NCBI GenBank assembly: GCA_947478845.1
Contig: CANJXC010000017.1
Span: 1 to 60,826, forward strand
Source of the DNA: Spirochaetales bacterium
Lineage (GTDB): Bacteria; Spirochaetota; Spirochaetia; JABEVK01
DNA length: 60,826 bases
Direction: 5' to 3'
In this document: piece after piece, positions 17,075-23,502 of the stretch
Layout of the letters: each line of letters starts with the position of its first letter
Numbering within the stretch: position 1 is the stretch's first letter
Notes under the pieces: generated by a model
Told to the model about the DNA's origin: nothing
Seen by the model: the letters and a program-made list of their open reading frames with translations, nothing else
The model's database searches: none
Translations under genes and position numbers: made by a program

Positions 17075-17883
17075 AGTTGCCCAACAGTCAGTCTGCCCTT
17101 GTTTTCGCCACCCTTGCAGTCCTCTTTGCCGCAGTTACCAGCGCAGAAGGTCAAAGCACAGGAGTTGTGAAAGCTGTACTTGTCGACGCAGGATCGTTCC
17201 TGCAGGGAAAAAGAACCTTGGAGCCGGTCAGCCCTGGCCGTCGTGTTTCTGTCTCCCCTTACTACATGTCAGAAACCGAGATTACCCAAGGACAATATAA
17301 AACCGTCACGGGCCTCGAACCAAGTTTGTTTCATAGCTCTGAAAACCCAGTGGAGCGAGTGAGCTGGTACGACGCGGTGGGCTTTTGCAATAAGCTCTCG
17401 GCCCTCGATGGACTGAAAGCTGCCTACCTCATCGAGGGAAGCAACGTGACCTGGGACCGCACTTCGGATGGCTGGCGGCTTCCCACCGAGGCCGAGTTTG
17501 AGTTTGCAGCGCGCGGTGGTGCGCAAGGCCATGATTTTGACTTTCCCGGAAGCAATACCGCTGACGACGTAGGCTGGAGTTTCAGCACCTCGGGCAAACA
17601 AACCCGGCCTGTACGTTCGCTGAAGCCAAACGAATTGGGCCTCTACGGTTTGGCCGGAAACGTATGGGAATGGTGCTGGGACTGGTACGCCTTCGACAGA
17701 TCTGCAATGCCCTCGATGGACCCCTCCGGGCCGCAGGTTGGCACCGATAGGATCAACCGGGGCGGAGGCTGGAACGACGACTTCGTCGACTCCATGCGCC
17801 CCTATTTTCGTGCCGACGATGGACCCGACTCCAAGGACAGCGACTTGGGCTTCCGAGTTGTGCGGACCTCTTTGGGGCTCTAG
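17071..17883 (+). CDS. Secreted formylglycine-generating-enzyme (SUMF1)-like protein
   Basis: Signal peptide of about 25 residues, then an FGE-sulfatase fold: YMSETEITQGQY, RLPTEAEFEFAARGG, the GNVWEW signature and the closing GFRVVR. In bacteria this fold also serves proteins that do not modify sulfatases, and no sulfatase gene is visible here, so the activity is uncertain. The start overlaps the stop of the protease-like gene; the end overlaps the convergent VWA gene by 4 bases. Confidence 0.85.
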   Translation: MKLPNSQSALVFATLAVLFAAVTSAEGQSTGVVKAVLVDAGSFLQGKRTLEPVSPGRRVSVSPYYMSETEITQGQYKTVTGLEPSLFHSSENPVERVSWYDAVGFCNKLSALDGLKAAYLIEGSNVTWDRTSDGWRLPTEAEFEFAARGGAQGHDFDFPGSNTADDVGWSFSTSGKQTRPVRSLKPNELGLYGLAGNVWEWCWDWYAFDRSAMPSMDPSGPQVGTDRINRGGGWNDDFVDSMRPYFRADDGPDSKDSDLGFRVVRTSLGL

Positions 17884-18998
17884 AACGTCGTCAGGGGCAA
17901 GAGTAGAAACTGCAGGGACACTCCTGCCGCTTTCGCCCGCTCAAGCACCGTAGTTTCAAGCACCTTACCGCGGGCTACGTCGTGTTGGGGAGCGTCGGCG
18001 TAGATGACAAGCTTGCGGTTGACCGTCGCTACATCAAACAGGTCAAGACCCGCATCCATCGCCTCGATGACCGCTTCTGGTATGTCTCCTCCCGCGTCGG
18101 TAGTCGCCGCAAGAAGTTCGCGCTTCCAAGTTTCCCGGTCGGCGGTCAAGGGCACCGGCCGCGTCAGAAACTTCTCCTGGTAGTCCCGGTAAAAGACGAA
18201 ACCAAGCCGAAAGTGAGAAAAGCCCGCGGTCAAGGTATCGAGTTGAGGCACCAGAAGTTCGTTAAGGGCAATGATGTTTTGCTTCATGCTCTTGGTGAGG
18301 TCGATGGCCCACACGAGGTCGAGATCGTCTGAAAGTGTTGCCTTCAACCGCTTGATGCCATCTGTCGGGTCGAGGGCTTTTTCGGTAGGTCCTAGGCGAC
18401 GAAACAGGTCTTCTGCTCCTTTCACATACTTACCGTGGTCGGGAGCCAAGTCGGCCACCACTAACATGGTAGACAACTCAAAAGCGTTGTCTTTATAGGC
18501 TCCCCTGTAGTCTTCATAAGGTTTGGCAAACAGCCGGATGGAAAACCACACTTTGCCGCCAGCCTTGGCCAGTTCTTCGGTGACATTCACCTTGCCGTAG
18601 CGGGATCCAGGAGCGGTGTTGCCCCACTCGATCACCGGTGGAATCACGATTTCAAAAGAAGAACCAAACCTCTCATCGGTCTTGGCGGTGGAAGATATCA
18701 GAAACTGATTAGGGCCTTTGAGGGCCTTTCCATTGAGCAGTCGCTTTTCCTTGGCGCCCGAAGGGTAATCCCCCAGAGCTTTCCAGGAATAGGTGGCCAG
18801 CTTGTGATCGGGGAGTTCAAAGGCCTCAACCAGCATCACCGATTTGACCCCGGCAAGCTGCCGGACGAAAAGATGAAACCCGTCATCCCGCGACTCCACC
18901 CTGACATCACCGGCCTTTAGGGTGAGTTGGGGAGCCGGAGATTGTGCCCAAAGCGCGGGAACAATCAGGGCTAGGGCTGCGCACAAGCGAAGTCTCAT
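17880..18998 (-). CDS. Secreted von Willebrand factor A domain protein
   Basis: Signal peptide ending WAQ, a beta-rich N-terminal half, and a VWA domain from about residue 228 with the metal site DLTKS in place of canonical DxSxS (Thr replaces the first Ser). The closing strands are KLVIYADAPQHD and VSLQFLLLP. Likely periplasmic or surface, mediating protein contacts. It is 13 bases downstream of the E1-lipoyl-KASIII fusion gene, so they may share a transcript. Confidence 0.78.
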   Translation of the reverse strand: MRLRLCAALALIVPALWAQSPAPQLTLKAGDVRVESRDDGFHLFVRQLAGVKSVMLVEAFELPDHKLATYSWKALGDYPSGAKEKRLLNGKALKGPNQFLISSTAKTDERFGSSFEIVIPPVIEWGNTAPGSRYGKVNVTEELAKAGGKVWFSIRLFAKPYEDYRGAYKDNAFELSTMLVVADLAPDHGKYVKGAEDLFRRLGPTEKALDPTDGIKRLKATLSDDLDLVWAIDLTKSMKQNIIALNELLVPQLDTLTAGFSHFRLGFVFYRDYQEKFLTRPVPLTADRETWKRELLAATTDAGGDIPEAVIEAMDAGLDLFDVATVNRKLVIYADAPQHDVARGKVLETTVLERAKAAGVSLQFLLLPLTTF

Positions 18999-19011: not shown

Positions 19012-22000
19012 TTACTTGGTCCGCATCACGGCACCACCGAAAGTGAATCCGCCACCAAACGCACAAAGGCCTAGGAACTTGCCCGGGACTAATTGGGGCG
19101 TCAACTCAAACAGGGCCAATGGTATCGAGTTTGACGACGTGTTGCCATAGTGGGCAATGTTGGAGAAAATCTTTTCCGCAGGCAACTTGGTCTTCTGCCG
19201 AACGGCATTGAGGATGCGTTGGTTGGCTTGATGGGCAACCACCAGGTCGAGTTCGCTCGGCGAAAGACCGCTGGCATGGCAGGCTTGTTCGAGAAGTAGC
19301 ACCATATGCTTCACCGCTTCCAGGTAAACTTTGGGACCGTCCATCGTGATAAACTCTTCTGCCGACAAGGGAACTTTGAGGCTGCTTCCGTTTTCACCCC
19401 TCCCGGAAAGCAGCGGACGGTCGAACTCGGCGATAAACTCTTGAACCCGGTCGGAGCCTACGACAAGGGTAGCCGTGGCTGCATCACCAAAAACTGGCGC
19501 CGTCTGGACGTCGGTCGGGTCGGTTCGTCGGCTCAGGACCTCGGTGGTCACCACCAGCACTCGGCCAGAAGGGTTGTGTGCCAAATGATCCCAGGCCGCT
19601 TGTAGGCTGTAGAGGTAGCCGGAACAGGCCGCGTTGATGTCGTTTAACTGCAACAAAGGACCGTTTTCTCTCCCTTTGGTCAGCTCTGCCATAATCAGAC
19701 ACGCCATCGACGGAGTGAAACTTGCCGGGGTACCCGAAGTGCAGAAAACCGCCGTCAAGTCCTCGGGATTCAGCTGATGTGAGTTTAAAAGCTCGCTGCT
19801 CGCCCGTACCGCCAGACTCAAGGCCGTTTCGTCTTCAGTCGCCCACTGACGGGTCACTATACCTATTCGCTTGACGATTCCGGCAGGGCTCCAATCAGAG
19901 CAATTCTGGGAGATTTCCTCGTTGGTGACCCGCCGAGATCCGGGAGCGATACGGATGCCGGCGATGCCCACTTGAATGACGCGACCGGCCTTGCGTGAGG
20001 AGGTGGGCGCCAAAGGATTCCACGTGATGCGGGGCGTTCCGGGATTTTCCATGATAATTGGCTTCCTGGACACCCTTGCCTTTCCGGTGGCAACCTTTAA
20101 CAGGTGAGTTCCGACTTTGACTTGTTCCCCCTCGGCGACGAGGAGCTCGACCAGGGTACCCTCGAGAGGACTGGAGAGGTCGAAAGCAGCCTTATCCGCT
20201 TCGAGTTCGGCAAGCTTTTGGCCGGTCTTGAGGACTTGTCCGGCTTTCACCAGCCACTCCAACACGGTGACCGATTCATCCGAGGGACTGGAGCCAGTGG
20301 CTTCGACGAAGGAGAACCCTTCCTCGTCATGGGGCTGGGGTTCCCAAAATAATTCACCCTCCAGCATGTCTACGGCCGTGGCAAGGATTTTCTTGTAGGA
20401 GGGGAGTACTTCGAGTTGGTTGCCGAAGTTGCAGGGCACGTAGGTGTCGGGCCGGGTCACCCTGCGGATTTGCACCGAGACACCGGCTGTTTCCGCAATC
20501 GTGGCGCTGATTTCACTCGCCATCGAAGCGGAATGGGAATCCTCTTGGGCGATGAGAAGGCGGCCGGTCTTGCGTACCGACTCCAGCACGAGCGGCTGGT
20601 CCCAGGGCGAAAGCGAGCGGAGGTCGATGACGTCGCAGGTTCTGCCCGCGGCGCGCAAGGAGTCGGCTGCCCTAAGGCAGAGGTTTAGGGTGTTACCCCA
20701 GCCTACTAAGGTCAGTGCGTCTCCGTGACGGTGGAGCCGACCCCGACCTATGGGTACCAGATGCTCGCGGATGTCTTTGCTGGTGGTCTGGGTCCGGTCG
20801 TTAAGACAGCTCTTGGGGTAAAAGAAAATTGTGGGACGCTTGGATTCAAACGCGGCGTTGAGCAGCCCAGCAGCGTCGCCGGCCGTAGCAGGCAGGAACA
20901 CGTCGATACCCGGGGTGTGGGCGGCTATCGACTCCATGCTGCTGGCGTGGAACGGACCCAAACCGGGCTTGTAGCCACCGCAGCTCACCATGAGAATCAG
21001 GGGCGCCGTCCAGCCCCCATCGGTGCGCCATTGCATGGAGCCCATCTCCGCAAAGATTTGGTTGTAGGCAATAGCGAAGAAGTCTGCAAACTGTAAAAAA
21101 CCGACCGGGCGGCGACCGGCCAGAGCTTGTCCCACACTGACGCCCACAATTGTGGATTCAGCCAGGGGCGAGTTTTTGACCCGGCCCGGGAATGCTTGGC
21201 TCAGTCCCTTGGTGACCCCGAACACATCACCCTTGGGGTCTTCTATGTCCTCGCCGAATAGGGTGACAGCGGAATTGGTTTCCAACTGGTGGCGCAACAC
21301 CTCACGCAGGGCCTCCAGCATCACGATCTGTTCGCCGCCCTCGATACCGGTTTTCTCTTCGGCAGGGTTGCTCAGACGCGACGAAAGCTCAGCCTTGGCC
21401 GTAAAGACCGGCTTGGGATCCGGGCTGTCTTGCGCCTCGATGCTTTCGGCGAGCACTTGGGCTTTGATTTCGACTTTGAGTTTCTCAAGGCGGGCAAGAT
21501 CAACATCATTCTGGATAAGAAGTGCCTCCAGCCGGGGAATCGGATCGTCACGGCGTCGGGTTTCTTCGATTTCCTCGAGGGTGCGGTAGCTGCGGTGATC
21601 GTCGGCATTGGTGTGGCTGTTCAGCCGGCTCACCTGAAAGACGACGATTCCAGGACCGCGGGTGCGGCGGATGTCTTCCACGGCGGCCTGAAAAGCGGTG
21701 TCGCTGGCAACCGGATCTCGGCCGTCTACCCGCACTAAAGGAATGCCGTAATATTCAGAGGCATCCCCGGCGGGTAGGCTGAGGAAGGTCTGACCCTTGG
21801 TCTTTGTGCTGATGGCCCAGGTGTTATCTTCCACCACGAACAACACCGGAAGGGTTTCGCGTACGGCGTGCGCAATCGCTTCCAGTACCTCGCCCTGCTG
21901 GGTCGTGCCATCGCCGAGGGCGCAAACCACCAAAGGACGGCTGAGCCGATCCTTGATAACGGAAGCCACTCCGACAGCTTGGAGCGCGTTGTTTCCCACC

Positions 22001-22341
22001 GGCCCTACAAGGCTCAGCACCTTGAGGCGGGGATCGCTGAGGTGCGCCGACATCTGTCTCCCACGGCTGTGGCTTTGGTCTTTGCAGAACAGGCTCAGGA
22101 AAAACTGCCGGGGACTCACCCCGCGCGCAATCAAGAGTGACTTGTCGCGGTAATGGCAGTGCAGGTAGTCATTTTCGGTCAGGTAGTGGTTGAGGAACGC
22201 GATGTTCTCGTGGCCGGAACCCGAGACATGAAAAAATGCTTCGCCGCGCTGAGTGTAGTCCTGTTCAAGGAGGTCGACCTCCCGGGACTTCACGATGCTT
22301 TCAAACACAGAAAGGTATCGATCCACGGTGGTTTGGTTCAT
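19012..22341 (-). CDS. Four-part fusion: 2-oxoacid dehydrogenase E1 alpha - E1 beta - lipoyl domain - ketoacyl-ACP synthase III
   Basis: One uninterrupted 1109-residue reading frame. Residues about 1-320 are E1 alpha with the thiamine-diphosphate motif GDGTTQQGE...N near 142-172. About 340-670 is E1 beta (LFGEDIEDPKGDVFGVTKGL, LAESTIVGVSVG, Q..FADF). About 685-775 is a biotinyl/lipoyl domain whose attachment lysine is Lys717 in EADKA. About 815-1109 is KAS III with Cys906 (NAACSGYL), His1037 (HQANQ) and Asn1067 (GNTSSNS). All catalytic residues are present; no E2 acyltransferase or peripheral-subunit-binding domain is. The inferred chemistry is decarboxylation of a branched 2-oxo acid, acyl transfer to lipoate, then condensation to start a fatty acid. 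Confidence 0.88.
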   Translation of the reverse strand: MNQTTVDRYLSVFESIVKSREVDLLEQDYTQRGEAFFHVSGSGHENIAFLNHYLTENDYLHCHYRDKSLLIARGVSPRQFFLSLFCKDQSHSRGRQMSAHLSDPRLKVLSLVGPVGNNALQAVGVASVIKDRLSRPLVVCALGDGTTQQGEVLEAIAHAVRETLPVLFVVEDNTWAISTKTKGQTFLSLPAGDASEYYGIPLVRVDGRDPVASDTAFQAAVEDIRRTRGPGIVVFQVSRLNSHTNADDHRSYRTLEEIEETRRRDDPIPRLEALLIQNDVDLARLEKLKVEIKAQVLAESIEAQDSPDPKPVFTAKAELSSRLSNPAEEKTGIEGGEQIVMLEALREVLRHQLETNSAVTLFGEDIEDPKGDVFGVTKGLSQAFPGRVKNSPLAESTIVGVSVGQALAGRRPVGFLQFADFFAIAYNQIFAEMGSMQWRTDGGWTAPLILMVSCGGYKPGLGPFHASSMESIAAHTPGIDVFLPATAGDAAGLLNAAFESKRPTIFFYPKSCLNDRTQTTSKDIREHLVPIGRGRLHRHGDALTLVGWGNTLNLCLRAADSLRAAGRTCDVIDLRSLSPWDQPLVLESVRKTGRLLIAQEDSHSASMASEISATIAETAGVSVQIRRVTRPDTYVPCNFGNQLEVLPSYKKILATAVDMLEGELFWEPQPHDEEGFSFVEATGSSPSDESVTVLEWLVKAGQVLKTGQKLAELEADKAAFDLSSPLEGTLVELLVAEGEQVKVGTHLLKVATGKARVSRKPIIMENPGTPRITWNPLAPTSSRKAGRVIQVGIAGIRIAPGSRRVTNEEISQNCSDWSPAGIVKRIGIVTRQWATEDETALSLAVRASSELLNSHQLNPEDLTAVFCTSGTPASFTPSMACLIMAELTKGRENGPLLQLNDINAACSGYLYSLQAAWDHLAHNPSGRVLVVTTEVLSRRTDPTDVQTAPVFGDAATATLVVGSDRVQEFIAEFDRPLLSGRGENGSSLKVPLSAEEFITMDGPKVYLEAVKHMVLLLEQACHASGLSPSELDLVVAHQANQRILNAVRQKTKLPAEKIFSNIAHYGNTSSNSIPLALFELTPQLVPGKFLGLCAFGGGFTFGGAVMRTK

Positions 22342-22449: not shown

Positions 22450-23502
22450 TTAAAGCGCTGCAGACAAAGTCTGCGCAGACAATGTCTGCAAGCCACTGTC
22501 ACAGCGCCTCATTTCCAAGGGATAGTCTCCGGCCTCTAGCCAATATTCCTCTCCATCAAGTTGCATGGGCAAGCGCTCCGCTTGGATAATGCTAATCGCG
22601 TCTCCTGAGGCGAACTCGATACCAGGCAGGCCCCGGTGGGTGCCCCGATAGATCGGCCCCCGGTAGGCCAGCTTTGTGAGAAGGTTCACCCGGTGGGCGA
22701 GCACCACATTGTCGTCGTCGGGAAGGACATGTTTTCCGGCACCGTAAGTGCGGTGGCCGGAGGTTCCCACGGCCACCAATAGCAATTGCTCATCCCACTC
22801 GCTGACAACTTGGCCCTCTCGGGTGAGCTTGACTTGCATAGGCACCATTTTGGTTGCCCATTCATAAAAAACGGTTGCGGCATCGACCATCAGGCTGTAG
22901 GTATTGCCTGGCATCAGTTTTCGAAATCGGTTGGTGAGAGAGACCACCCAGGCGTCAAGACCGACACTTCCAATGTTGAAACTGTAATTCAGACCCAAGC
23001 TAGGAGAGGTCACCTCAAGCATGGCAAGGCTCCTCGGCTGGAATCCTGGGACGGGCCGACCTGACAAGACTTCTAGGCAGGTGGCCCAGTCATCCGCATC
23101 GGCGGCATCGTTTCCCGTACCTAAAGGCAGGCGGAAGAACAGAAGTTTTGCCTTTTCTTCGGCACTCATGCCCAGCGCAGAAATAAGAGCGGCACGGGAG
23201 GTGCCGTCACCGCCGGCGACAACCACAAGGTGAAGATCGGGGCCTACGGGATGTGGCACCAATGGCGGAAGCTCTGGGCTGGTGAGTCGGGTCTTTACGG
23301 TGACTCTGCGACCTGTCTCAGAAGTTGGTTTAGGCCACTGGTCGAGGGCACGAATCAGGTTAGCGAGGCGGGACCGGTTTCGGAACGCACCTGCGTAGGG
23401 ATTGATGAGCAGGTCAATGTGCAGACTTTGGTCGGGAAAAAGGTTGGTTTCACGCAACCAAGCCGTGAACCGGGCAGAAAAAGCGGCGACGGAGATTTCC
23501 AT
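22450..23502 (-). CDS. Diacylglycerol kinase-family lipid kinase
   Basis: Predicted to phosphorylate a lipid such as diacylglycerol or a sphingoid base. The catalytic domain shows NPYAG, GGDGTSR and PLGTGND, the DAGK signature set. The C-terminal part is a beta-rich domain ending with a short repeat (LQTLSAQTLSAAL) encoded by two tandem DNA palindromes. It lies 20 bases downstream of the NtrC-like regulator gene and probably belongs to the same sigma-54 operon. Confidence 0.85.
   Translation of the reverse strand: MEISVAAFSARFTAWLRETNLFPDQSLHIDLLINPYAGAFRNRSRLANLIRALDQWPKPTSETGRRVTVKTRLTSPELPPLVPHPVGPDLHLVVVAGGDGTSRAALISALGMSAEEKAKLLFFRLPLGTGNDAADADDWATCLEVLSGRPVPGFQPRSLAMLEVTSPSLGLNYSFNIGSVGLDAWVVSLTNRFRKLMPGNTYSLMVDAATVFYEWATKMVPMQVKLTREGQVVSEWDEQLLLVAVGTSGHRTYGAGKHVLPDDDNVVLAHRVNLLTKLAYRGPIYRGTHRGLPGIEFASGDAISIIQAERLPMQLDGEEYWLEAGDYPLEMRRCDSGLQTLSAQTLSAAL
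22460..22489. repeat. Two tandem 15-bp palindromes
   Basis: GCAGACAAAGTCTGC followed immediately by GCAGACAATGTCTGC. They encode part of the last residues of the lipid kinase and form two adjacent hairpins or a double protein-binding site near the end of the operon. Confidence 0.75.

Follow-up and report, generated by a model that had tools for sequence, protein, structure and literature searches.

A gene in the window (the whole stretch of DNA that was analysed, 60,826 nucleotides, contig CANJXC010000017.1 of a Spirochaetales bacterium) encodes both chains of a 2-oxo acid dehydrogenase E1, a lipoyl domain and a ketoacyl synthase III (KAS III or FabH) in a single polypeptide. With good confidence it is read as a starter-unit synthase that serves type II fatty-acid synthesis and bypasses CoA, built like a 2-oxo acid dehydrogenase complex but with KAS III replacing the E2 acyltransferase. 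The modules are known ones; their order implies a reaction route that is new, and the arrangement appears to be undescribed. No description of a lipoyl-KAS III enzyme was found in the open full-text literature (subscription journals and preprints being outside this scope), in keeping with the remark in a preliminary description of the DNA that the protein may not have been characterised biochemically. The fusion probably belongs to an undescribed class of machine, a “2-oxoacid dehydrogenase-ketosynthase”, in which KAS III does the work of the E2 and lipoyllysine hands its acyl group directly to the ketosynthase, without acyl-CoA. The single-chain and lipoyl-PSBD-KASIII lineages may represent more than one origin of such a class, which may also explain why the lipids of Kiritimatiellota are iso-even.

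In the textbook view of how fatty-acid synthesis begins, FabH takes its primer from acyl-CoA. If the reading is true, feeding FabH from a lipoyl arm would amount to initiation independent of CoA, and channelling by such an arm would extend to carbon-carbon bond formation. The fusion would be a compact, self-contained module turning 2-oxo acids into branched starters, and the even iso fatty acid signature would be explained in a group with few cultures (Kiritimatiellota).

Domain architecture and proposed reaction

The features of the gene are listed in Table 1. The order E1-alpha, E1-beta, lipoyl, KAS III, first proposed from the reading frame, is borne out by Pfam and NCBIfam, with the gene lying on the minus strand, and the active-site residues named at that time (the ThDP motif, Lys717, Cys906, His1037 and Asn1067) are all in place. 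The E1-beta domain consists of Transket_pyr (338-513, 2.6e-23) and Transketolase_C (532-644, 3.2e-27), and the ThDP motif GDG...DN spans residues 143-173. NCBIfam extends KAS III over 790-1108 (2.5e-68), although the window protein falls under the NCBIfam cut-offs. In Pfam scans of the fusion protein there is no match to the E2 catalytic domain (PF00198) or to the E3-binding domain (PF02817).

Table 1. Features of the fusion gene and its product in the window
Feature	Position	Strand	Support
E1alpha-E1beta-lipoyl-KASIII fusion gene (P0001), 1109 aa, ATG start	19012..22341	-	Pfam, NCBIfam, full-length homologues
E1-alpha domain, residues 19-311, ThDP motif GDG143-145...N173	21409..22287	-	Pfam PF00676 E1_dh, 7.6e-44
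E1-beta domain, residues 338-644	20410..21330	-	Pfam PF02779 + PF02780
Lipoyl domain, residues 690-749	20095..20274	-	Pfam PF00364 Biotin_lipoyl, 5.6e-14
Predicted lipoyl-acceptor Lys717 (ELEADKAAFDL)	20191-20193	-	Turn between two predicted strands, DSSP of model
Linker, residues 750-789	19975..20094	-	Conserved KP..E.PG.P motif, low pLDDT
KAS III domain, residues 790-1107	19021..19974	-	Pfam ACP_syn_III 901-967, ACP_syn_III_C 1021-1107
KAS III Cys906 (NAACSG)	19624-19626	-	
KAS III His1037 (HQAN)	19231-19233	-	
KAS III Asn1067 (YGNTS)	19141-19143	-	

In an AlphaFold model (53 homologues, mean pLDDT 89.7) every domain is folded. Low-confidence linkers occur around 630-640, 680-690 and 750-787, as expected for a swinging domain. 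Foldseek retrieves the E1-beta of PDH or branched-chain E1 and FabH as separate matches, and the KAS III part has a normal FabH fold (TM by target about 0.9).

The overall reaction would run from a 2-oxo acid through acyl-lipoyl and the KAS III cysteine to a 3-oxoacyl-ACP, with regeneration by an E3 acting in trans. The E1 domains, whose motifs are present, would use ThDP to decarboxylate the 2-oxo acid and would reductively acylate a lipoyl group that Lys717 is predicted to carry. The lipoyl domain, on its flexible linkers, would then swing to KAS III and pass the acyl group to Cys906. KAS III, which has both the triad and the docking Arg, would condense the acyl group with malonyl-ACP to a 3-oxoacyl-ACP. 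The dihydrolipoyl group would finally be reoxidised by an E3 borrowed from another complex; as the window fusion has no detectable E3-binding domain, this E3 would have to reach the lipoyl domain untethered.

With BKD/BCKDH (Thermus thermophilus E1, 1um9) the fusion shares the E1-alpha/beta fold, the ThDP motif and the lipoyl domain, and its split forms (see below) also an E3-binding domain. It differs in that the E1 chains are fused, that KAS III stands where the E2 acyltransferase and core are lacking, and that its expected product would be 3-oxoacyl-ACP rather than acyl-CoA. With FabH it has in common the fold, the Cys-His-Asn triad and the ACP-docking Arg249, but it is covalently tied to a lipoyl domain, and its CoA-contact positions (R151, R36 in some, probably W32) and the gate position F87 are altered. 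The two-step route through BKD and FabH (e.g. in Bacillus and Staphylococcus) has the same overall chemistry and product class, a branched starter, but there acyl-CoA is a free intermediate, whereas the fusion would channel the acyl group on the lipoyl arm.

Distribution and alternative layouts

The window is contig C17 of the host genome (2.99 Mb, 99.75% complete), whose closest named relatives are Spirochaetes MAGs. Every one of the six other genomes searched in the host family has the full fusion (54-74% identity), as do 54/248 genomes of the host class (Spirochaetes) and 28/116 of the class that includes a Pontiellaceae genome. Its occurrence is sparse in Planctomycetes, Lentisphaerae and others. 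A planctomycete-type phylum draw gives 6/294 genomes; in three of the six, the match at the chosen threshold is confined to the E1 part. Full-length homologues are 46-74% identical, and the best 80 public loci span Spirochaetes, Pirellulaceae, Lentisphaerae, Kiritimatiellales, Sumerlaeota and others. Across these 80 loci K717 and C906 (both 80/80), H243 and H465 are invariant, while H1037 (79/80, one gap) and N1067 (78/80, two gaps) are kept wherever the sequence covers them; the ThDP GDG...N motif is conserved among the homologues. The proposed search for the same domain order has thus found full-length homologues in several phyla, and an assembly artefact or chance fusion is ruled out by the 80 public loci together with the genome surveys.

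Two Candidatus Accumulibacter MAGs carry a spirochaete-like fusion (55-56% identity) near a LepA-like gene and other ORFs that are common to both contigs. This shared context suggests that the gene entered a betaproteobacterium by horizontal transfer and is not a contaminant. A partial homologue in a single-contig 3.8-Mb genome of the spirochaete class (G052:C1:815171-816763), in which the match runs across a TGA, may be a broken or frameshifted copy.

Two further layouts exist. In the second, found in spirochaetes, an E1-alpha/beta chain (656-697 aa) is followed by a lipoyl-KASIII gene (499-534 aa), and in the five split loci examined with enough flank the E1-alpha/beta gene is directly upstream on the same strand. 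Close relatives of one such lipoyl-KASIII protein (L098) occur in 6/248 genomes of the class, one of them cut at a contig end, and the full fusion is absent from all six. The possibility that fused (54/248) and split (6/248) forms exclude each other was set aside, zero overlaps against about 1.3 expected by chance being not significant. In two of the four split forms scanned, L098 and L126, lipoyl and KAS III are separated by an E3-binding domain (6.3e-9 and 2.8e-7); Pfam did not detect it in L097 and L124.

Of 241 genomes taken from a Verrucomicrobiota-type phylum (that of G249), seven have the third layout, lipoyl-E3-binding-KASIII (519-528 aa), and PF02817 is found in four of the Verrucomicrobiota lipoyl-KASIII proteins. 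The gene stands alone, with pyrG-like and RsmE-like ORFs among its neighbours. All three genomes tested have an unlinked E1-alpha/beta that belongs to the subfamily of the spirochaete split chain and is 42-44% identical to it (1e-159 or better), the other E1 match in these genomes reaching 31-33%, and by eye there is no recognisable E2 beside the unlinked gene in any of the three. From this E2-like architecture it follows that KAS III repeatedly sits where the E2 catalytic domain belongs. In trees of KAS III and of E1, the fused and the split forms each make up one well-supported clade. As to common or separate origin of the two, the trees give no decision, since the long branches meet, a warning of long-branch attraction.

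In two of the three third-layout genomes the E1-alpha/beta gene lies, judged by eye, among LPS-transport-like and KDO-phosphatase-like ORFs (L185 6180-8237, L187 6037-8166), an unusual setting for the E1 of a 2-oxo acid dehydrogenase.

CoA-contact positions and the E2s of carrier genomes

Ordinary FabH contacts the CoA adenine with Trp32 and Arg151 (E. coli FabH numbering). Arg is found at position 151 in none of 77 fused KAS III domains (Val945 in the window protein), while the flanking residues are kept (Asp150 75/77, Thr153 76/77); the five Verrucomicrobiota lipoyl-KASIII forms all have His. By contrast, all eight ordinary spirochaete FabH/KAS III proteins, and the FabH of the host itself, have Arg at this position. 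The spirochaete split forms also retain Arg, which counts against CoA bypass. In ungapped register no lipoyl-linked KAS III has Trp at position 32, the residues being mostly Asp in the fused, Tyr in the spirochaete split and Glu or Ala in the Verrucomicrobiota forms. However, a Trp lies four residues further upstream in 43 of the 77 fused proteins; one alignment pairs it with W32 by way of an insertion, and the loss of W32 was downgraded from a firm fact because of this ambiguous register. The M. tuberculosis FabH chain in PDB 2aj9 has Ala at the equivalents of both W32 and R151, consistent with an engineered double mutant.

The residues for catalysis and ACP docking are retained in the fused set: C112 and H244 in 77/77, N274 in 76/77 (one gap), and R249 in 77/77 (Arg1042 in the window protein). 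Judged by residue identity, the pattern of lost CoA-contact positions and retained catalytic and ACP-docking residues supports a lipoyl-linked KAS III that would work without CoA.

This pattern bears on an alternative of mere co-location, in which an E2 core acting in trans releases acyl-CoA from the lipoyl arm and the attached KAS III uses it conventionally. That alternative draws on the normal FabH fold of the KAS III and on the E2s of the carriers: the host has two, and most fusion-bearing genomes at least one, so that acyl-CoA could be made elsewhere, which tells against CoA bypass. We consider it rather improbable, since the ordinary FabH of the same organisms keeps the CoA-contact positions that have changed in the fused KAS III, and the second and third layouts put KAS III in the position of the E2 catalytic domain. 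The earlier statement that there is no E2 acyltransferase holds for the fusion gene and fails for the host genome, in which PF00198 has just two matches, on two other contigs (C18 and C5). By eye, two E3-like ORFs lie beside these two E2s, and a lipoate-ligase-like ORF beside the PDH genes. An absence of all E2s was accordingly rejected as proof of CoA bypass, and among the carriers only one genome is suggestive. G324 (4.4 Mb, of the class with the Pontiellaceae genome) combines the fusion with one ordinary FabH, in which W32, F87 and R151 are all present, and with a single E2 whose neighbour is an AceE-like E1; a further E1 matching the E1 family of the fusion was not found in it. This AceE-linked E2 is the only one available there, which speaks against co-location, and the gene content of G324 is suggestive of CoA bypass.

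Direct transfer from the lipoyl arm to KAS III, as the preliminary description had envisaged, is thus supported as the best reading by the split and third layouts, the losses at the CoA site and the lipids of Kiritimatiellota (below), with the transfer itself remaining putative.

On contig C18 of the host (L104, 2-10 kb), lipoate-ligase-like, E1a, E1b, E2 and E3 genes are interleaved with unrelated small ORFs, and the PDH gene order is similar in two family members (L100, L101). The host and Kiritimatiellota-type genomes (L154-L157 and L108) share a second, uncharacterised 2-oxo acid dehydrogenase set, in which a DeoR-like regulator lies beside an E2, a second lipoyl protein or E3, and a fused E1 of about 820 aa.

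Substrate, product and gene context

Branched 2-oxo acids are the likeliest substrates. The best candidate among them is 2-oxoisovalerate, which would yield iso-even fatty acids; the substrate may differ between phyla. Even iso chains derive from an isobutyryl starter, i.e. from valine/2-oxoisovalerate. In Kiritimatiellota isolates (Pontiella, Kiritimatiella, Tichowtungia) the major fatty acids are C18:0 together with i-C12:0, i-C14:0, i-C16:0 and i-C18:0 (PMC7356697, PMC10880615), thus mainly iso chains of even number. These lipids fit an isobutyryl starter, and the fusion is frequent in the class to which the group belongs. Two observations count against a branched starter of this kind. Salinispira, a spirochaete that may or may not carry the fusion, makes iso-C15 and anteiso-C15 and not mainly iso-even chains. 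To our knowledge, published fatty-acid profiles of Pirellulaceae are not rich in branched chains.

The same machine might be fed pyruvate (or 2-oxobutyrate), in which case acetyl-lipoyl (or propionyl-lipoyl) would start straight-chain fatty acids. The specificity of E1-alpha/beta is hard to read from sequence, the best NCBIfam E1 models are pyruvate dehydrogenase subfamilies (all under cut-off), and we do not know the Planctomycetes carriers as branched-chain producers. Such feeding is nevertheless unlikely. In a comparison of the family profile with PDB, both E1 chains best match the Thermus branched-chain E1 (1um9), and the E1-alpha matches listed after Thermus are human BCKDH alpha chains. 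In addition, the gate position F87 is Thr or Ser in 76/77 fused proteins (Thr876 in the window), which suggests a larger acyl pocket, and is Leu in the spirochaete split and Val in the Verrucomicrobiota forms, so that all lipoyl-linked forms have a smaller gate residue. The FabH of M. tuberculosis, an enzyme for long acyl groups, likewise has Thr there. The iso-even lipids of Kiritimatiellota also speak for branched 2-oxo acids over pyruvate.

A survey of the neighbourhoods of fusion loci reveals no general pathway linkage, and none to fatty-acid genes. This agrees with a further alternative, that KAS III is a plain acyltransferase which moves the acyl group from lipoyl to ACP or another acceptor without condensation, e.g. 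for a special lipid or secondary metabolite; KAS III-like acyltransferases do exist. Such a role is very unlikely, given that the His and Asn for decarboxylative condensation are kept at the frequencies noted above, and that each genome has one stand-alone, housekeeping-like fusion gene and no biosynthetic cluster around it. A condensing KAS III remains the preferred reading. The neighbours of the fusion are lineage-specific, such as aconitase, SelR, or a short-chain dehydrogenase near ten spirochaete loci.

In the window, a 372-aa secreted-looking ORF without counterpart in the other clustered loci (17880-18998, minus strand) starts 13 bp past the stop of the fusion. On the other side, upstream of the fusion and separated from it by about 110 bp, lies a DAGK_cat/YegS_C lipid-kinase-like gene on the same strand (22450-23502, minus strand), which is not conserved there in other lineages.
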